Positions 13,656-25,889 of a stretch of 36,503 bases of DNA are shown in pieces. The DNA comes from Streptomycetaceae bacterium (lineage in GTDB: Bacteria; Actinomycetota; Actinomycetes; Streptomycetales; Streptomycetaceae). The stretch lies in assembly GCA_019243445.1 (NCBI GenBank), contig JAFAUH010000042.1, positions 1 to 36,503 on the forward strand. The letters are read 5' to 3'. The notes under the pieces were generated by a model. The model was not told the origin of the DNA and did no database searches. It saw nothing but the letters and a program-made list of their open reading frames with translations. Positions within the stretch are counted from its first letter, which is position 1; each line of letters begins with the position of its first letter. Both the position numbers and the translations under genes were made by a program.

Positions 13656-14130
13656 ATTTCACCCCCGTGCCCCGCAATCTCCCTCCCAATCCTCGATCCG
13701 GCCAGGATTCCCTCGAACGGCTTAACGATCCACGGACTTTACGGCTACTCATCCGTTACCCATCCGTATCTGACATCCTCCACTCCTACGCGTGAGTAGG
13801 CCCTATCCAAAGAGGTTGCGACGCGGTAATCGTAGGGAAGGCTTCTCCCAAGGCCCCCCGCCCTACTATCTCCACAGCTCCCATGCGCATCCCCACCAGC
13901 GCAACCTCCCACCCGCCCCCATCCGTCACCCATCACCACCCTCAACGGAGCGCTTCGCGCGCAGCCTCCCACCCGTCACCCACCACCACCCTCAATGGAG
14001 CGCTTCGCGCGCAGCCACTTGGGTGAACGCGAACTGGAGCGGCCATGCACGCCCGTACACAATCGAGGGAGCAGATAGAAAAGGCACAGGGGGCACCGAG
14101 ACTACGCAACGACGCAAGCCAGGTGAGTCA
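13656..14130. other. Intergenic, 475 bp: glgP/glgE divergent promoter region
   Basis: Both promoters for central glucan metabolism must lie here. The stretch contains a near-perfect 50-bp tandem duplication (13919-14016), an inverted repeat CTACTCA/TGAGTAG (about 13744-13798), and the glgE ribosome site AGGTGAG at 14121. An open frame continuous with glgE extends through it to 13792, but its translation is low complexity and unlike GlgE. Confidence 0.65.
13919..14016. repeat. 50-bp tandem duplication in the glgE promoter region
   Basis: Bases 13919-13966 and 13969-14016 are the same 48-mer with three C/T differences, offset by 50 bp. Each copy contains GTCACCCA followed by a GGAGCGCTTCGCGCGCAGCC segment. 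The second copy ends 114 bases before the glgE start. Confidence 0.92.
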
Positions 14131-16154
14131 ATGATCGGTCGCATCCCTGTCCTGGACATCCGCCCGCTGGTCGAATGCGGACGCCGCCCCGCCAAGGCAG
14201 TGGTGGGCGAGGCATTTGACGTCACGGCCACCATCTTCCGTGAAGGACACGAAGCAGTCGCCGCCGGTGTGGTGCTCCGTGACCCCAAAGGGCGCTGCGG
14301 TCCATGGACGCCGATGCGGGAATTGGCCCCGGGCACCGACCGTTGGGGCGCCGAGGTGACGGCGACGTCGGAGGGCCGCTGGACATACACCGTCAAAGCA
14401 TGGTCCGATCCGCTGGCCACTTGGCGGCACACCGCTGGCATCAAGATCCCGGCCGGCATCGACACCGAGCTCGTTCTCGCCGAAGGTGCGAGCCTATTGG
14501 AGCGTGCAGCGGTCGGTGTACCCAAGAAGGACGGCCGCGCCGTGGTGCTCAAAGCCCTCGCCCTCTTGCAGGACGAAGAACAGGCACCGGCGGTACGGCT
14601 GACCGCCGCGCTGTCGCCCGAGGCCACCGAGGTGCTTGCGCGCTTCCCACTGCGGGATCTGGTCACCTCCTCCCGTCCGCTGCCGCTGCTGGTGGAGCGT
14701 CAGCGGGCGCTGTTCGGCTCCTGGTACGAGTTCTTCCCGCGCTCCGAGGGCGCGGTGATAGACGAGAGCGCACAGGGCGCCCCCTCGCGCTCCGGCACCT
14801 TCCGTACAGCCGCCGAGCGGCTCCCGGCGATCGCGGCGATGGGCTTCGATGTAGTTTATCTGCCGCCCATTCACCCGATCGGCTCCTCCTACCGCAAGGG
14901 CCGCAATAACGCACTGACCGCCGGGCCGTACGACGTCGGCTCGCCGTGGGCGATCGGCTCGCCGGAGGGCGGGCACGATGCGATCCACCCGGATCTCGGC
15001 ACCATCGAGGATTTCGACGCGTTCGTCGCCCGCGCCCGCGAGCTGGAGCTCGAAGTGGCGCTCGACTTCGCACTGCAGTGCTCCCCCGACCACCCGTGGG
15101 TGGACAAGCATCCCGAGTGGTTTGTGCACCGAGCGGACGGCAGCATCGCATACGCGGAGAATCCCCCCAAGAAGTACCAGGACATCTACCCGCTCGCCTT
15201 CGACGCCGACATGCCCGGAATTGTCGCCGCGACGCTGCGCGTACTGCGTCACTGGATGAGCCACGGAGTACGAATCTTCCGGGTGGACAATCCGCATACC
15301 AAGCCGGTGGTCTTCTGGGAGAAGGTGCTCGGCGAGATCCAGCGCACCGACCCTGACGTGATCTTCCTCGCCGAGGCATTCACTCGGCCGGCGATGCTGC
15401 ACACCCTTGCCTCGATCGGTTTCCAGCAGTCGTACACGTATTTCACCTGGCGCAACACCAAGGAGGAAATCACCAGCTACCTTGGAGAGTTGACGGGCGA
15501 GGCCGCCGCGTGGATGCGACCCAATCTCTTCGTCAACACCCCTGACATCCTCCACGCCTATCTGCAGCACGGCGGTCGGCCGGCCTTCGAGGCACGGGCC
15601 GTCCTCGCCGCCACCCTGTCACCCACATGGGGGATGTATGCCGGCTTCGAGCTGTGCGAGAACACCCCTGTGCGGGAGGGCAGCGAGGAGTACCTGCACT
15701 CGGAGAAGTACGAACTGCGCCCTCGCGACTGGGCAAGAGCCGAGGCCGAAGGCCGCTCCCTCACCCCGCTGATCACTCGCCTCAACCACCTGCGCCGCCA
15801 CCACCCGGCCCTGCAACATCTGCGTAACCTGCGGTTCCATCACAGTGACAACGACTCAATCATCGTCTACTCCAAACGTGCCCGCACCGCCGAAGGAGTG
15901 TGCGCAGGACCCGACACGTACGACACCGTGCTGGTCGCGGTCAACCTCGACCCGCACCACACCCGTGAAGCAACCATCTCGTTGAACATGCCGGAACTCG
16001 GCCTCGACTGGCACGACTCCATCCCGGTGCGCGACGAGCTCACCGGCGAGACCTACTACTGGGGCAGGGAGAATTACGTGCGCCTCGAGCCGGGCGTCGC
16101 GCCCGCGCACGTGTTGTCCCTGCGGCCGTCCTCACCGATCGGAGGGTCGCCCAA

Positions 16155-16158
<4 letters not shown>
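14131..16158 (+). CDS. glgE: GlgE maltosyltransferase (GH13_3)
   Basis: The 675-residue enzyme transfers maltosyl units from alpha-maltose-1-phosphate to the non-reducing end of alpha-1,4-glucans. It has the family order: N-terminal beta-sandwich and helical domains (~10-200), GH13 barrel (~200-560) and a C-terminal beta domain. D386 in [12 protein letters not shown] is the nucleophile, E415 in [10 protein letters not shown] the acid/base, and D472 in NTPDILHAY the third acidic residue; these correspond to D394, E423 and D480 of the S. coelicolor enzyme. ATG 14131 follows AGGTGAG and gives the family N-terminus. Its stop overlaps the treS start by 4 bases, opening the glgE-treS-mak-glgB operon. 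Confidence 0.97.
16141..16146 (+). promoter_or_regulatory. Ribosome site GGAGGG that decides the TTG start of treS
   Basis: GGAGGG, inside the end of glgE, lies 8 bases before TTG 16155. The nearby ATG at 16165 is out of frame, so TTG is the only reasonable start; the resulting MIINEPV N-terminus fits TreS. Confidence 0.8.
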
Positions 16159-17870
<1,712 letters not shown>

Positions 17871-17900
17871 ATGGGCGCGCGCCCCCAAAGAAGGGACGTC

Positions 17901-19403
17901 ATGTCGGATACCTGGCGGCTTTGTCCCATGACTGGTCATTCCCCTGCGCGGGGCGTCGTCGGCGCTCCCCGGCTCGCCTCTGCTTCCGCCACTGCCGCGG
18001 AGGCGGAAGCGGGGGCGCCCGGGCTACTGCGGGCGCTCACTCCGCTGCTGCGGGAATGGCTGCCACGGCAGCGGTGGTTCGCCGGCAAGGGCCAGCCGAT
18101 CACCGGCTTCGGCTTGGTCTGCGCGACGGAGTTGCTGCCCGCCGACGGCGGGGCCGGTCGACCGCGGCTGCTCCATCTGCTGCTCGACGTGCACCAGGAC
18201 GACACCCCTCCCGACTGCTACCAACTCCTGCTCGGCATTCGCGAGCTGCTGCCTCCAGCGCTCGCCCCCGCGCTGATCGGGCATGCGGTGGGCGGGCCGC
18301 TCGACGGGCTTACCGTCTTCGAGGGGCTGCACGACCCGCGGCTTGCGACGCTGCTGCTGGAGCGGCTGCGCGCCTCGGGATCGGCTGGACATCTGCGGTT
18401 CTCGGCGGAGCCGGATACCGCGATCCCCTCAGGGCTCGCACCGCGGATGTCAGTGGCGGAGCAGTCCAACTCATCCATCATTTACGGAGATACATTCATC
18501 CTCAAACTATTTCGGCGTATTTTGCCGGGCTGCAACCCCGACCTGGAACTCTCGCTCGCCCTCGCACGAGTGGGCTCGACGCGGGTGGCTGCGCCCGCGG
18601 CATGGTTCGAGGCAGTCGGGCTGCACGAGGAGCCCGCGACCCTCGGCGTCCTGCAGCGTTATCTTCCCGGCTCCTCCGACGGCTGGGAGCTTGCCTTGCA
18701 AGCGGTCGACGCATCAGGTGCCCAGGGCGACTTCGCCGACGGGGATTTCACCAAACATGCCCACGCACTCGGGCGTGCCACCGCCGAGGTGCACACAGCG
18801 CTCGCCGACGCACTGCCCATGACCCTCCTGCGCCGCCCGCAGATCCAACAGCTCGCCGCGGCGATGGCCGGGCGCCTGGACAGCGCGGTGGCCGCCGTGC
18901 CCGCGCTCGGCCCCTACCGTACGGGGCTGCGGGATGCCTTCCAGGATCTCGCCGCATTCGGCGCGGGCGGCGGGACGGTACGGGCACAGCGCATCCACGG
19001 CGATCTCCACCTGGGACAGGCGCTGTTGACCCCGGCGCAAGGATGGGTGCTCATCGACTTCGAAGGTGAGCCGGCCCGGCCGCTCGCGGAGCGGCGCCGC
19101 CCGCACTCCCCCCTCCAGGACATCGCGGGCATGCTGCGCTCGTTCGACTACGCGGCACGGCACCGCGATCCGACGTCCCCCTATGCCGCCGACTGGGCCG
19201 CACGGCATCGCACCGCCTACGTCGCCGGCTACGCCGAACGGTCGGGCAATGACCCGAACGGCTCACCGGTGCTGTTGCGCGCCTTCGAGACGGACAAAGC
19301 TGTCTACGAAGTCGTCTACGAAGCCCGTCACCGACCCGACTGGCTGCCCATCCCCATGGCCGCGATCGAGCGGCTGTGCCATCCGCAACCGGCCCGTCCC
19401 TGA
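17901..19403 (+). CDS. mak: Maltokinase (Pep2/Mak)
   Basis: The 500-residue kinase phosphorylates maltose with ATP to maltose-1-phosphate, the GlgE substrate. It has an N-terminal cap domain (RQRWFAGKGQPITGFG) and an aminoglycoside-phosphotransferase-like fold with the catalytic loop RIHGDLHLGQ (D368) and LIDFEGEPARPL (D386). An in-frame ATG at 17871 directly abuts the treS stop, but ATG 17901 follows AAGAAGGGA at good spacing and is preferred. A patch at 18471-18524, encoding SSIIYGDTFILKLFRR, is only about 37% GC against roughly 70% around it. The gene lies between treS and glgB in one operon. Confidence 0.95.
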   Translation: MSDTWRLCPMTGHSPARGVVGAPRLASASATAAEAEAGAPGLLRALTPLLREWLPRQRWFAGKGQPITGFGLVCATELLPADGGAGRPRLLHLLLDVHQDDTPPDCYQLLLGIRELLPPALAPALIGHAVGGPLDGLTVFEGLHDPRLATLLLERLRASGSAGHLRFSAEPDTAIPSGLAPRMSVAEQSNSSIIYGDTFILKLFRRILPGCNPDLELSLALARVGSTRVAAPAAWFEAVGLHEEPATLGVLQRYLPGSSDGWELALQAVDASGAQGDFADGDFTKHAHALGRATAEVHTALADALPMTLLRRPQIQQLAAAMAGRLDSAVAAVPALGPYRTGLRDAFQDLAAFGAGGGTVRAQRIHGDLHLGQALLTPAQGWVLIDFEGEPARPLAERRRPHSPLQDIAGMLRSFDYAARHRDPTSPYAADWAARHRTAYVAGYAERSGNDPNGSPVLLRAFETDKAVYEVVYEARHRPDWLPIPMAAIERLCHPQPARP

Positions 19404-19427
19404 CTGGCCCTCTAGGAGGACCCGACT

Positions 19428-21803
19428 GTGAATCCGCGCTATCCCTCGCACCCTGCGCCCGGGTATGTACCGGCCACGTTCCTGCCGGGCACAGGGCCGG
19501 GCGCAGGCTCGGGCGGGGCCGCAGGGCCGGGCGCAGGCTCGGGCGGGGCCGCAGAGCCGGGCGCAGCACGGCCCTGCGAGGGCCACAGCGCACCGCTGAG
19601 CCCCGACCACAGCGCACCGCTGAGCCCCGAGGAGCACCGGCAGCTGTTCGACGGCGCTCATCACGACCCGCATGCGCTGTTGGGCGCGCATCACGTCAGC
19701 GGGGGTATCGCGTTCCGCGTGCTGCGTCCGTGCGCCCGCTCCGTCACCGTCGTCGCCAAGGGGCTGCGCGCCGAGCTCCACGACGACCGCCAAGGCCTGT
19801 TCACCGGCGTGCTGCCGCTGCAGGAGATCCCCGAGTACCGGCTGATGGTGGAGTACGACGGCGGGACGCACGAGGTCGAGGACCCTTACCGACTACTGCC
19901 TTCGCTCGGCGACCTCGATCTGCACCTGATCCGCGAGGGCCGCCATGAGCAGCTGTGGACGGCGCTCGGCGCACATCCGATGACACATCAGGGCGTGACG
20001 GGCACCCGGTTCACCGTGTGGGCACCGAACGCGCGCGGGGTGCGGGTAGTCGGCGACTTCAACTACTGGAACGGCACCGGCCATCCGATGCGCTCACTCG
20101 GCTCGTCCGGGGTGTGGGAACTGTTCCTGCCGGGGATCGGCGAGGGCACTCTCTACAAGTTCGAGATCACCCGCCAGGATGGCTCCCGCCAGACCAAGGC
20201 CGATCCGATGGCCCGCCGCACCGAGGTACCGCCCGCGACCGCTTCCCTCGTCACCGTCTCCCACCACCAGTGGCAGGACGAGGAGTGGATGGCGCACCGC
20301 GCCGAGATCCCCGTCCACCGGGCGCCGTTCTCCGTCTACGAAGTACACCTGCCGTCGTGGCGTCCCGGCCTGACCTACCGCGAGCTCGCCGAACAACTCC
20401 CCGCCTACGTCAAGGACCTTGGCTTCACCCATGTCGAGTTGATGCCCATTGCCGAGCATCCCTTCGGCGGCTCATGGGGCTACCAGGTCACCTCGTACTA
20501 CGCCCCCACCGCCCGCCTGGGCACCCCGGACGACTTCCGCTACCTGGTCGACGCGCTGCACCGGGCCGGGATCGGGGTGGTGATGGACTGGGTGCCGGGG
20601 CACTTCCCCAAGGACGAGTGGGCGCTCGCCTGCTTCGACGGGACGCCGCTGTACGAACACCCCGACCCCGCGCGGGCCGAGCACCCCGACTGGGGGACCT
20701 TGGAATTCGACTTCGGCCGCACCGAAGTGCGCAACTTCCTCGTCGCCAATGCCGTCTACTGGTGCACCGAATTCCACATCGACGGTCTGCGAGTGGACGC
20801 CGTCGCCTCGATGCTCTACCTCGACTACTCGCGCGAGCAGGGCCAGTGGAGTCCGAACCGGCACGGCGGCCGGGAGAATTTGGCGGCGGTGGAATTCCTG
20901 CAGGAGATGAACGCCACCATCTACCGCCGCTGCCCGGGCGTAGTCACCATCGCCGAGGAGTCAACGGCATGGGAGGGGGTCACCAGAGCCACCCACCACA
21001 CCGGCCCGAACGGCTTCGGCGGCCTCGGCTTCGGCCTGAAGTGGAACATGGGGTGGATGCACGACACCCTGGTGTATCTCTCCCACGAGCCGATCCACCG
21101 CAAATACCACCACAGCGAGATGACTTTCGCCATGGTGTACGCGTACTCCGAGAATTACGTACTGCCCATCTCGCACGACGAAGTGGTGCACGGAAAAGGC
21201 GCGTTGGTCTCCAAACCACCGGGTGACTGGTGGCAGCGGCGCGCCACCCACCGGGCCTACCTTGCCTTCATGTGGGCGCACCCTGGCAAGCAACTTCTGT
21301 TCATGGGCCAGGAGTTCGCGCAAGGAGCGGAGTGGTCGCACGAAAGCGGCCCCGACTGGTGGCTGTTGGACGAGGCCTACTCGGCGGCCGGTGACCACCG
21401 CAGCGTGCAGGATTTGGTCCGCGAACTCAACCGACAGTACGCCGCGACCCCCGCGCTGTGGCAACTCGACACCGACCCGACCGGTTTCTCCTGGCTCGAC
21501 TCCGGTGCCGCCGACGACAATGTCTTTTCCTTCATCCGCTACGACACCGGCGGGCAGCCGCTCGCCGCGATCAGCAATTTCTCACCTGTCGTACGGCACG
21601 GCTACCGCATCGGCCTTCCCGAAGTGGCGGCGTCCTGGCAGGAAGTCCTCAACACCGATGACCATGGCTACGGCGGCAGCGGAATGATCAACCCCGAGCC
21701 GCTCAAGACCGAACCTCTCGCATGGAACGGCCGCCCGGTCAGCGTAGAGTTGACGCTGCCGCCACTGGCGACGGTATGGCTACGTCCGGCCGCCACAAGG
21801 TAA
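19428..21803 (+). CDS. glgB: 1,4-alpha-glucan branching enzyme GlgB (GH13_9)
   Basis: The 791-residue enzyme makes alpha-1,6 branches in the glucan built by GlgE. It has two N-terminal CBM48-type beta domains (~75-165 and ~185-285), a GH13 barrel and a C-terminal beta domain. Key residues are D457 in [16 protein letters not shown]510 in [10 protein letters not shown] and D584 in [12 protein letters not shown]. The GTG start is fixed by AGGAGGA 7 bases upstream. The first 70 residues are a low-complexity extension built from two tandem repeats (30 bp and 24 bp units). It is the last gene of the glgE operon, with a terminator-like hairpin following. Confidence 0.97.
19494..19630. repeat. Two tandem repeats in the glgB 5' coding region
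   Basis: A 30-bp unit occurs at 19494-19523 and 19524-19553 with a third partial copy, giving [10 protein letters not shown] repeats. A separate 24-bp unit occurs at 19583-19606 and 19607-19630, giving HSAPLSP(D/E). Both periods keep the frame. Confidence 0.92.
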
Positions 21804-21818
21804 GGCATCAAAGACGTG

Positions 21819-21851
21819 GCGGCCCCTGCCGACTCCTGTGGCAAGGGCCGC
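21819..21851 (+). terminator. Hairpin after glgB, probable operon terminator
   Basis: gcggcccctgcc (21819-21830) pairs with ggcaagggccgc (21840-21851) with a single mismatch and a 9-base loop, then tgttctttcc. It begins 15 bases after the glgB stop. Confidence 0.7.
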
Positions 21852-21981
21852 TGTTCTTTCCGACGCCTCGCAATTCTGCGGCAATCTCATGACCGTAAGG
21901 AACGCAATAGTGACCACAGACCCGCACGGCCTCATGCTGTGGCGAGTAATGCACCCGACCCTGTGGTGAAAGGTCCCCGTC

Positions 21982-23280
21982 ATGAGGCAATTACTCGGTG
22001 AGCGCGAGGCCAGGCCCCCTCGTCGGCGGCTCACAGCCGACCAGCGCAACGCGTTCCTCGCGGCCCAACTCGGCTGGGCGATGGACGCATTCGACTTCTG
22101 CATCGTCGTTTTCGTATATGACGAGATCAGCAAGAGCTTTCATGTCTCTTTGGAGACGGTAGCCTTCCTGACCACGGTCACCTTGCTGATGCGACCGGTG
22201 GGTGCGCTGCTGTTCGGCCTGTGGGCAGACAAAGCGGGTCGCCGGCTGCCGCTCATGGCCGACGTCTGTTTCTACTCGCTGGTCGGTTTCCTCTGCGCTT
22301 TCGCCCCCAACTTCACCGTGCTGCTGGTGCTGCGGCTGCTGTACGGGATCGGCATGGGTGGTGAGTGGGGCCTTGGGGCGGCACTCGCGATGGAGAAGAT
22401 CCCGGCCGAGCGGCGCGGCTTTTTCTCCGGTCTGCTGCAGGAGGGCTACGCCTGCGGATATCTGCTGGCCGCACTCGCCTATCTGCTGATCCACTCCGAG
22501 ATGCACCTGTCCTGGCGGTGGCTGTTCGGGCTGAGCATTCTCCCGGCGCTGATCAGCCTCGTCATCCGTTCCCGGGTGAAGGAGTCCGAGGTCTGGGAGA
22601 ACACCCGCGAATCGATGCGAGTCACCCGGACATCGAGGCGTGAGGTGCTGCTCAACGGGAAAATTGTGCGGCGTTTCGTCTATCTCGTCGCGCTGATGAC
22701 CGCGTTCAACTGGATGAGCCACGGAACTCAGGACATCTTCCCGGCTTTCTTGAAGGCCACCGAGCATGGCGGCGCCCACTTGTCGGCGTCGACGGCCGGC
22801 TGGATCGCGGTGATCTACAACATCGGCGCCATCATCGGCGGTCCGATCTCAGGCATGCTCTCCGAGCGCTACGGGCGCCGCTACATGATCGCCTTCTGCG
22901 CGCTGCTGGCTCTGCCGATCGTGCCGCTGTTTGCCTATTCGCACACGGCGGGCATGCTCGCCCTAGGGGCGTTCTTGATGCAGGTCATGGTGCAGGGGGC
23001 GTGGGGTGTCATCCCGGCTCACCTCACGGAGCTGTCACCGGATGCCATTCGCGGCTTCTACCCCGGTGTGACGTACCAGCTCGGCAACTGCCTGGCTGCC
23101 TTCAACTTGCCGATCCAGGTGGCGCTGGGGGAGTCCCACGGCTACCCCTTCGCACTGGCCGTGACGGTCGTGCCGACGCTGATCATCGTGGCCGTGCTGA
23201 CCCTGATCGGCAAGGAGGCCAAGGGCATTTCGTTCGGATCGGAACCGGCCGCCGCGGAAGCCACCACCGTGTACTCCTGA
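21982..23280 (+). CDS. MFS transporter, carboxylate/sialate-proton symporter type
   Basis: The 432-residue protein has about 12 membrane segments and the MFS signatures [12 protein letters not shown] between helices 2 and 3 and SERYGRRY after helix 8. The N-terminal [20 protein letters not shown] resembles the sialate/lactate-H+ symporter (SHS/JEN-like) branch, so uptake of a monocarboxylate or other organic acid is likely; the substrate is not fixed by sequence. A kinase of the CitA/DcuS type and its regulator follow, which supports an organic-acid role. AAAGG lies 9 bases before the ATG. The fourth codon is TTA (21991-21993), so in a Streptomyces-type cell translation would depend on the bldA tRNA. 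Confidence 0.87.
21991..21993 (+). other. TTA codon at codon 4 of the transporter gene
   Basis: The gene starts ATG AGG CAA TTA CTC. No other in-frame start between here and the first membrane helix would avoid this codon, because the next methionine is inside helix 1 (AMDAFDF). Confidence 0.88.
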
Positions 23281-23382
23281 CAGCCCCTGTGCCGGCCCGG
23301 GCGATCCCGGCCCGGGCCATCCCGGGAGAATCCGGCGCACGCTCCCGATACAGAGCACGCCCGGCAGGGCACACTGGACGGC

Positions 23383-25203
23383 ATGCCCATACCACGGCCT
23401 CGCCGGCCTCGCCGCTGGTGGGGCCGGCCTGTCCCCTCCAGGCGCCCCCGCAGCCTGGCAGGTCAGCTACTCACCATGCAGATCATGGTGATCGCAGCTG
23501 TGCTGCTGGGATGCGTCTTCGTAGCGTACGTCTTCGCTCAGGACGAGGCGGATGACACCGCGCGCCAGCACGTCGTCAGCGAGGCGCGCACTCTCGCGGA
23601 CACGCCGACCGTTCGCCAGGCAGTCGTCAGCCGGGACCCGACCGCCGTACTCCAGTCGTACGCCGAACAAGTGCGCCGCGACACCGGTGTCTCGTTCATC
23701 ACGATCATGAGCCCGAGCGGAATACGGTTCACCCACCCCAACCCGGCGGAGATCGGCCGCCACTTCCTCGGGCACCGCGCCAGGGCCCTGGCCGGGCACA
23801 CCTTCACCGAGACCTATCGGGGCACCCTGGGCCGCTCCATCCGCGTCGTCACCCCGGTGTGGGGTACGCATGGCGAGGTCAGCGCCCTGGTGAGCGTGGG
23901 CGTCACCGTGCACAGCATCGACAGCCGCCTGTGCGACCAACTGCTGGCCCTGTCCGGGCTCGCCCTCGCCGCGCTGGCCGTCACCGGTATCGGCACGTGG
24001 CTCGTCGGATCCCGGTTGCGTCGCCATACCCACGGCATGGGCGCGCAGGAGCTGGGCCGGATGTACGACTACCACGAGGCGACCCTGCATGCGGTGCGGG
24101 AAGGCCTGCTTCTGCTCGACAAGGACCGGGAGGGGCAGATCCGGATCACTTTGTGCAACGATTCCGGGCGCGAGCTACTCGGGCTGCCGGCCGATACCGA
24201 AGGCCGCCGTCTCGATGATCTCGGGCTGCCCGAGTCGCTCATCACCGCGCTGGTGGCGTCGGAACCGCGGGTGGACGAGGTGCATCTGACCGCCGAGCGG
24301 GTCGTGCTCGTCAACACTCGGCCGGTGCGGACCGGTTCCCGGCGCGGCGTCGTGGCCACACTCCGCGACCATACCGAACTTCAGGCGCTCAGCGGCGAGT
24401 TGGACTCGGTGCGCGGTTTCGCCGAGGCTTTGCGTTCCCAAGCCCACGAGGCATCCAACCGCCTGCACACCATCGTCTCGCTGATTGCGCTGGGCCGACC
24501 ACAGGAAGCTGAGGAATTCGCCACCGCTGAGCTGGGGTTGGCACAAGCCCTCACCGACCAGGTGATAACTGCGGTCGCCGAGCCGGTGCTCGCCGCGCTG
24601 TTGCTCGGCAAGGCTGCCGAGGCCAACGAGCGCGGTGTGGACTTCCGCGTCACCTCCGACAGCCGCATCGACGACCGGCTGTTGCCACCCGCACTGAGCC
24701 CCCGCGATCTCGTCACCATCCTCGGCAATCTGATCGACAACGCGCTCGATGCGTCGATCGAGGCGGCCGGCTCGCCCGAATCGCCCGGCTCTCCTTCGCC
24801 GCGCCCGTATGTCGAGGTGACCGCCCGGATCGAGGAGGGGCAGCTGCTGCTGCGGGTGGCCGACTCCGGCCGCGGGGTGGATGCCGAGGAGCTGCAGGAG
24901 GTGTTCCGGCGCGGCTGGAGCACCAAACAGGCCGCCGACGACCGGGGCCGCGGGATCGGCCTCGCCCTCGTCCAGCAAACGGCGCACCGCGGAGGCGGTA
25001 CGGTGCACGTCGACCGGGAGGTGGGCGCAGTGTTCACCGTGCGGCTGCCGGTGGCAGAACATGAGCGACGCACGGGAACAGGCGGAGTGGGCAGAATGGG
25101 CGGTCGAGACTCCGGTCGAGGGGCGCGCCTTTGGCGCGACAGGACGGCCGGGGAGAGTGCGAGTGGGTGGGGAAGCGAAGGTACGGAGAGGGCCAAGGCG
25201 TGA
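23383..25203 (+). CDS. CitA/DcuS-family sensor histidine kinase
   Basis: The 606-residue membrane kinase has helix 1 (~33-52), an extracytoplasmic PAS-like sensor (~53-185, with TGVSFITIMSPSGIRFTHPN), helix 2 (~187-208), a cytoplasmic PAS (~225-335), a SpoOB-type dimerisation helix with phosphoacceptor H355 in RSQAHEASNRLHTI, and an ATPase domain (N449 in GNLIDNALDA, D493 in VADSGRG, and GRGIGLALV). Kinases of this family sense citrate, fumarate or related acids. The last ~45 residues are a Gly/Arg-rich tail not needed for the fold. Its TGA overlaps the regulator's GTG, so the pair is translationally coupled. It lies about 100 bases after the transporter gene. Confidence 0.92.
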   Translation: MPIPRPRRPRRWWGRPVPSRRPRSLAGQLLTMQIMVIAAVLLGCVFVAYVFAQDEADDTARQHVVSEARTLADTPTVRQAVVSRDPTAVLQSYAEQVRRDTGVSFITIMSPSGIRFTHPNPAEIGRHFLGHRARALAGHTFTETYRGTLGRSIRVVTPVWGTHGEVSALVSVGVTVHSIDSRLCDQLLALSGLALAALAVTGIGTWLVGSRLRRHTHGMGAQELGRMYDYHEATLHAVREGLLLLDKDREGQIRITLCNDSGRELLGLPADTEGRRLDDLGLPESLITALVASEPRVDEVHLTAERVVLVNTRPVRTGSRRGVVATLRDHTELQALSGELDSVRGFAEALRSQAHEASNRLHTIVSLIALGRPQEAEEFATAELGLAQALTDQVITAVAEPVLAALLLGKAAEANERGVDFRVTSDSRIDDRLLPPALSPRDLVTILGNLIDNALDASIEAAGSPESPGSPSPRPYVEVTARIEEGQLLLRVADSGRGVDAEELQEVFRRGWSTKQAADDRGRGIGLALVQQTAHRGGGTVHVDREVGAVFTVRLPVAEHERRTGTGGVGRMGGRDSGRGARLWRDRTAGESASGWGSEGTERAKA

Positions 25204-25889
25204 GCGACGTTGTCCAGGTGCTGGTCGTCGAGGACGATCCGGTGGCGGCGGACGCCCACCGGATGTACGTCGAGCGGCTCAGCGGCTTCGCCGTTGCCGG
25301 GATCGCGCACTCCGGCACCGAGGCGCTGCGCTTCATCGAGCGTCAGCGGGTCGATCTGGTCCTGCTCGACCTGCACCTCCCGGACGGCCACGGCCTGCAG
25401 GTCGTACGGTCGATGCGTGCGGCGGGGCACGGCGCGGACGTGATCGCGGTGACCTCGGCACGCGAGCTGGACATGGTGCGTCAGGCCGTGTCGGTGGGGG
25501 TGGTGCAGTATCTGCTGAAGCCGTTCACCTTCCCGGCGCTGCGCGAGCGGATGGAGCGGTGGGCACGGTTCCGCGACGAGTTGGCGGGCGGCGAGGCGTC
25601 CGGGCAGGAGGAGGTGGACCGCGCGCTGTCGGTGCTGCGCAGCCGCGAGTCGGCGGCCACGTTGCCCAAGGGGCTGAGCGCGTCGACGCTCGAGGCGGTG
25701 ACAGCGGCGCTGCGGCAATCGACCGCCGGCGTGTCTGCGGGCCAGGCTGCCGAGACGGTGGGCATCTCGCGGATCACGGCACGGCGCTATCTGGAGCACT
25801 TGGTGGGCACTGGACGTGCGCGCCGGGCACCGCAGTACGGGCAGGTGGGCCGCCCGGAGTTGAACTACCGCTGGATTCACCGTACTTGA
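25200..25889 (+). CDS. CitB/DcuR-family response regulator
   Basis: The 229-residue regulator has a receiver domain (1-125) with acidic pocket E11/D12, phosphoacceptor D57 in LLDLHLPDGHG and the KPF motif, followed by a DNA-binding helix-turn-helix (~175-215, VSAGQAAETVGISRITARRYLEHL) typical of the CitB/DcuR group. GTG 25200 overlaps the kinase stop (GTGA) and follows GGAGAGG; the longer open frame upstream lies within the kinase gene. The likely targets include the transporter gene upstream, by analogy with DcuSR and CitAB systems. The stop codon is inside the stem of the terminator. Confidence 0.93.
   Translation: MSDVVQVLVVEDDPVAADAHRMYVERLSGFAVAGIAHSGTEALRFIERQRVDLVLLDLHLPDGHGLQVVRSMRAAGHGADVIAVTSARELDMVRQAVSVGVVQYLLKPFTFPALRERMERWARFRDELAGGEASGQEEVDRALSVLRSRESAATLPKGLSASTLEAVTAALRQSTAGVSAGQAAETVGISRITARRYLEHLVGTGRARRAPQYGQVGRPELNYRWIHRT

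Follow-up and report, generated by a model that had tools for sequence, protein, structure and literature searches.

A rare TTA codon at the fourth position of a transporter gene in a Streptomycetaceae bacterium probably reflects ordinary codon turnover rather than a programme of sensing before uptake

We asked whether a TTA codon at the very start of a transporter gene could make sensing precede uptake in a Streptomycetaceae bacterium. Normal translation of a TTA codon needs the bldA tRNA. An earlier note on the DNA analysed here (the window, a stretch of 36,503 nucleotides) had proposed that the codon gates an organic-acid-type transporter, while a sensor kinase and a regulator encoded downstream are made earlier. 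Our analysis indicates that the TTA is probably a genuine, lineage-specific rare codon subject to ordinary TTA turnover, and not an evolved programme of sensing before uptake. The neighbourhood itself was as the note had described it, with genes of the GlgE pathway upstream and, downstream, a sensor kinase gene and a regulator gene, both free of TTA:

Positions 13792 to 21803, plus strand: GlgE-pathway genes, namely glgE (start uncertain), treS, a maltokinase-like gene and glgB.
Positions 21804 to 21870, plus strand: hairpin with a U-rich tail 3' of glgB, a probable terminator (folding and terminator scan).
Positions 21969 to 21973, plus strand: AAAGG, a probable ribosome-binding site picked out by eye, 8 bases 5' of the ATG.
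Positions 21982 to 23280, plus strand: MFS transporter gene, 432 aa (Pfam MFS_1, TIGR00891 and the Streptomyces humicola orthologue).
Positions 21991 to 21993, plus strand: TTA, codon 4 and the sole TTA of the transporter gene (read from the sequence).
Positions 23383 to 25203, plus strand: gene for a DcuS/CitA-like sensor histidine kinase (sCache_3_2, PAS, HATPase_c), no TTA.
Positions 25200 to 25889, plus strand: gene for a DcuR/DpiA-like response regulator, no TTA.

Positions 21982-21996 read ATG AGG CAA TTA CTC and form the opening five codons of the transporter gene, which confirms TTA as its fourth codon. An in-frame TGA lies at 21967 and is followed by no ATG, GTG or TTG before 21982; the next in-frame ATG (22081) falls within a conserved GWAMDAFDF stretch that we take for TM1. 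As there is no alternative start from 21967 up to this stretch, the start at 21982 is secure. The S. humicola orthologue, 88% identical, shares this start and the N-terminal sequence (MRQLLG.REARPP). The transporter gene has a GC3 of 0.85 and its product matches Pfam MFS_1 with an E value of 1.1e-39; with its secure start and in-frame TTA, this genuine coding sequence counts as a TTA gene. The best NCBIfam match of the protein is TIGR00891 (sialate:H+ symport, SHS; E 2.4e-143 over residues 14-398), yet it scores 478.1 bits against a model cut-off of 552.9 and hence is not a certified member of this SHS-type MFS group. It is an SHS-like major facilitator and a probable organic-acid symporter.

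How unusual is such a codon in this organism? As the earlier note assumed in arguing from streptomycetes, the host is a member of the Streptomycetaceae, congeneric with S. humicola, which NCBI taxonomy places in this family. Its genome is a draft (5.36 Mb, 414 contigs, 96.21% complete, 4.96% estimated contamination) in which the window is contig C148. Genes were called with a codon-score script, a non-standard annotator that may have misplaced some starts (for the kinase the script preferred a later start, 23476). A sample of 265 genes with 91,275 codons, drawn from 19 stretches of the host genome (371,853 bases), contained 11 TTA codons in nine genes, in agreement with the claim that TTA is rare. 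Two TTA-rich stretches, G000:C261:4031-9751 (L170) and G000:C317:8003-13262 (L180), hold nine of the 11 TTA codons, in seven genes; both match S. humicola only in part and are probably accessory DNA. Outside them, two TTA codons were found in 81,432 codons. The transporter TTA is the only one among the 21 called genes of the window, for which 1.2 would be expected at the full-sample rate and ∼0.24 at the lower rate. Given the rarity outside the TTA-rich stretches, its presence in a gene common to both genus members is somewhat notable. Taken alone, its early place is also unusual, a flat rate predicting 0.008 TTA codons for codons 2-4 of the 21 genes taken together. In this small sample, TTA is somewhat enriched near gene starts (2/192 leucine codons in codons 2-10 versus 11/9,028 overall, P 0.02, a figure that rests on two genes with script-called starts). 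A bias of TTA towards gene starts has been published for streptomycetes (PMC4255298), and an early position such as that in the transporter gene is common among streptomycete TTA genes. With 51-505 TTA-bearing ORFs per genome reported across 213 Streptomyces species (PMC10327506), the transporter gene has numerous counterparts in genomes of this kind and, as a TTA gene, is an ordinary one.

The tRNA on which bldA-type control depends was found. The draft genome yielded 56 tRNA matches, 55 of which ARAGORN resolved over 50 loci, the match at C387:432-503 giving no ARAGORN call. Five of the 55 are tRNA-Leu genes and one of these, at G000:C2:10433-10514, has the anticodon UAA; the bldA-type tRNA-Leu(UAA) that the gating proposal presupposed is thus represented by one gene among the resolved matches, and a single UUA-reading tRNA coincides with rare TTA. 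In the AdpA orthologues of both species (L182 and L183, 90% and 91% identical to the query sequence) the inter-domain TTA is kept in frame, as TCA TTA CC[A/G], and the third base of the codon that follows differs between the two. The adpA TTA was reported in all streptomycetes analysed in PMC4255298. Together, the tRNA-Leu(UAA) gene and the adpA TTA indicate that the bldA setting is present, and the conservation in adpA served as a positive control, showing that our comparison is able to detect a conserved TTA. Translation of the transporter would be expected to use this single tRNA, and its synthesis would be lowered or delayed while tRNA-Leu(UAA) is scarce, as in other TTA genes. With its single rare TTA, in a genome where one tRNA-Leu(UAA) gene was found, the transporter gene resembles bldA/TTA-controlled Streptomyces genes such as adpA, actII-ORF4 and redZ (PMC2000904).

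We then compared codon 4 among relatives. The genus is represented by two genomes in all, that of the host and one that we take for Streptomyces humicola RB6PN25. In S. humicola codon 4 is CTA, one synonymous base away from TTA, within an otherwise conserved start region. Codons have changed at 16 of the 57 leucines that the two transporters share, which makes a difference at a single leucine nothing out of the ordinary. An error of the draft assembly, a wrong T for C at 21991, would also create a TTA, and S. humicola indeed has C at this base while the draft is fragmented into its 414 contigs and carries some estimated contamination. However, the reading frame is intact over all 432 codons, and the substitutions nearby (eight of the first 20 codons differ between the two species, seven of them synonymously) resemble normal divergence, which makes an assembly error extremely improbable.

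Strong homologues of the transporter (E 1e-150) were found in 28 of 394 Streptomycetaceae genomes, 26 of them outside the genus, and these 26 are free of TTA over the whole stretch that starts 31 codons ahead of the anchor and runs to the end. In the 26 family matches the alignment starts at query residue 10-16, and at 79 loci outside the genus the tblastn alignment reaches residue 4 in 11 cases, none with a leucine there, so that the outgroups cannot polarise TTA versus CTA. A wider set of 88 rows (80 contig-search loci minus L067, which lacks the anchor, plus nine Streptomycetaceae family rows) includes 14 in which a TTA occurs from 31 codons ahead of the anchor onwards, in no case at codon 4; these rows all come from Mycobacterium, Nocardia or Amycolatopsis. 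For such non-streptomycete genera bldA-type control is considered doubtful in one source (PMC4255298), and another holds that it may matter in most Actinobacteria (PMC10327506). At L116 a TTA lies two codons from the codon-4 place, but upstream of the start suggested by the relatives of L116.

The earlier note had accepted that absence of the codon from close relatives would speak against its proposal, and such absence is what we observed in the single close relative available (CTA); none of the 26 other Streptomycetaceae homologues has a TTA either. Sister species beyond this sample could share the TTA at codon 4. Nevertheless, we see no sign in these sequences of selection keeping it there. 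Unlike the transporter TTA, that of adpA is conserved between the two species, and dependence of the transporter on bldA is putative. From the sample, one TTA gene lying beyond the TTA-rich stretches, L164:6423-7340, was compared with S. humicola and likewise has another leucine codon there, CTG. Published comparisons over 213 Streptomyces species describe most TTA codons as poorly conserved, and transferred genes have been proposed to bring or shed TTA codons (both PMC10327506). The case also carries a caution: a single rare codon is no basis for inferring regulation unless relatives are checked.

Sensing before uptake requires that the kinase be expressed independently of the transporter, and we therefore considered the layout of the genes. 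Upstream, the hairpin 3' of glgB is strong (-33.9 kcal/mol, z -4.07, with 0/200 shuffles folding as well) and is accompanied by one terminator-like site at 21838-21851, where 0.2 would be expected. A transporter gene within the GlgE operon was rejected as the default because of this strong, U-tailed hairpin. Between glgB and the transporter gene S. humicola has a 225-aa open frame (L062:4209-4886), the product of which looks by eye like an XRE-like DNA-binding protein; the window has 178 bases there. Downstream, transporter, kinase and regulator genes lie on one strand, with a gap of 102 bases (23281-23382) between transporter and kinase and an overlap of 4 bases between kinase and regulator, and their order is identical in S. 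humicola. No promoter-like and no U-tailed terminator-like site was found in the gap by a scan that omits other promoter types.

The gap contains GC-rich hairpins in both species, of differing sequence (window 23281-23382; L062:6300-6378). It folds slightly better than shuffled sequences in the host (z -1.45, 13/200 as good) and in S. humicola (z -1.16, 26/200), and the hairpins are possible terminators without a U tail.

Taken together, these observations bear on three further readings of the codon. The first is the adaptive one, in which the early TTA is a bldA gate on uptake and kinase and regulator are made earlier. The tRNA-Leu(UAA) gene, the TTA-bearing adpA, the absence of TTA from kinase and regulator, and gap hairpins that might separate two mRNAs would all fit with it. 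On the other hand, the codon is kept neither in S. humicola nor in the 26 homologues, the genes share a strand across a short gap that lacks a promoter-like site, and the folding of this gap is barely better than that of shuffles. Moreover, a kinase gene without TTA appears to be the default and not a design, since in the aligned stretches of related loci in the family no TTA was found in the kinase (21), in the regulator (21) or in the symporter that usually adjoins them (19 loci). Were the kinase encoded on the transporter mRNA, stalling at codon 4 would lower it too, which also argues against sensing before uptake. Non-conservation and the same-strand layout thus weaken adaptive gating, and we consider it quite unlikely; the gene layout offers no ground for favouring sensing before uptake.

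The second reading takes the single mRNA at face value: transporter, kinase and regulator would be co-transcribed, and a stall at codon 4 would lower all three when the tRNA is scarce. It agrees with the shared strand, the short gap, the 4-base overlap and the same gene order in S. humicola. It also has a precedent in S. coelicolor, where deletion of bldA lowered a UUA gene together with its downstream neighbour (SCO6638/6637), and polarity from stalling was suggested (PMC2000904). There, as here, the TTA gene comes first and the next gene follows on the same strand; however, SCO6638 and SCO6637 have a start/stop overlap and the bldA effect was measured, whereas the present genes are separated by 102 bases and are known from sequence alone. 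Co-transcription is putative, and the first mRNA could stop short of the kinase, at the GC-rich hairpins that the gap contains in both species. Such joint lowering seems to us rather improbable.

Third, the TTA could be nearly without effect, either because charged tRNA is sufficient during growth or because near-cognate tRNAs read the codon. Expression of several TTA genes in bldA-deficient strains has been described (PMC4932002). Against this stand the ribosome pausing score of TTA, which in S. griseus was the highest among the 61 codons during one growth phase (PMC8914203), and a calculation that gave no raised missense error rate for UUA (PMC4932002). A codon of almost no consequence is fairly unlikely in our judgement. 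Under the preferred reading, that of a genuine rare codon in ordinary turnover, any effect of codon 4 on the transporter would be at most modest and species-specific.

Finally, we asked what the transporter may have to do with the kinase-regulator pair. The kinase has the DcuS/CitA-type architecture, with a periplasmic single-Cache sensor domain, PAS and kinase domain in this order, and the best solved relatives of its sensor are a histidine-kinase sensor domain (8bgb, 8biy), DcuS and CitA. It falls below the cut-off in the DcuS/MalK, MalK and DpiB NCBIfam models. Kinase matches (E 1e-100) were present in 43 of 61 Streptomycetaceae genomes, including both genus members, and among the 41 from other genera we viewed the neighbourhood in 20 (the 18 best loci plus two chosen ones; L200-L217, L226 and L227). 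In 19 of the 20 the pair is divergent from an adjoining SDF/DctA-type dicarboxylate symporter gene, and Pfam SDF was confirmed in all eight symporter proteins scanned. In the remaining genome, G072, no SDF symporter lies within 1.5 kb of the kinase copy viewed (one of two copies). Sensor domain and regulator match DcuS/CitA and DcuR/DpiA relatives, as at DcuS-DcuR and CitA-CitB-type loci with a DctA-type symporter. While an SDF neighbour is usual at such loci in the family, both members of the host genus (2/2) lack it at the locus and instead have the MFS gene upstream on the kinase strand (window 21982-25889; L062). No SDF symporter was detected in the host draft genome, and in S. humicola a 31% relative was all that was found.

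The note's description of the transporter as organic-acid type is supported. The DcuS/CitA-like sensor domain and the dicarboxylate symporter that is the partner of the pair elsewhere in the family make an organic-acid type probable, but the family models alone are no proof. On the simplest reading of these gene neighbourhoods, uptake of organic acids for the DcuS/CitA-like kinase has passed to the MFS protein. A reading that builds on such a replacement of DctA and carries the relationship of DctA and DcuS over to the MFS protein and the DcuS-like kinase was given a very low probability. Kinase and regulator were not found in the flanks covered (up to 5 kb per side) of the other 79 transporter-bearing loci, and the neighbours of the Amycolatopsis acididurans transporter, an amidase gene and an IMS-type (impB/mucB/samB) polymerase gene, give no clue to the substrate. 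A limited literature search (Streptomyces CitA/DctA-type loci; TTA in transporter genes) found nothing that matches the locus. Here a widespread pair for sensing organic acids has, in one lineage, a different transporter beside it. This makes a natural case in which to ask how a kinase adapts to a new transporter, and the replacement is a more interesting lead than the TTA codon.

The transporter tree (89 rows, L067 left out, nine of the 26 family homologues included, midpoint root) groups the two genus members as a clade (100/100) and separates them from the nine family rows. This clade sits among Pseudonocardiaceae, Nocardiaceae, Mycobacteriaceae and other families, its exact place being weakly supported, and the branching suggests that the transporter gene may have been acquired from outside the Streptomycetaceae.
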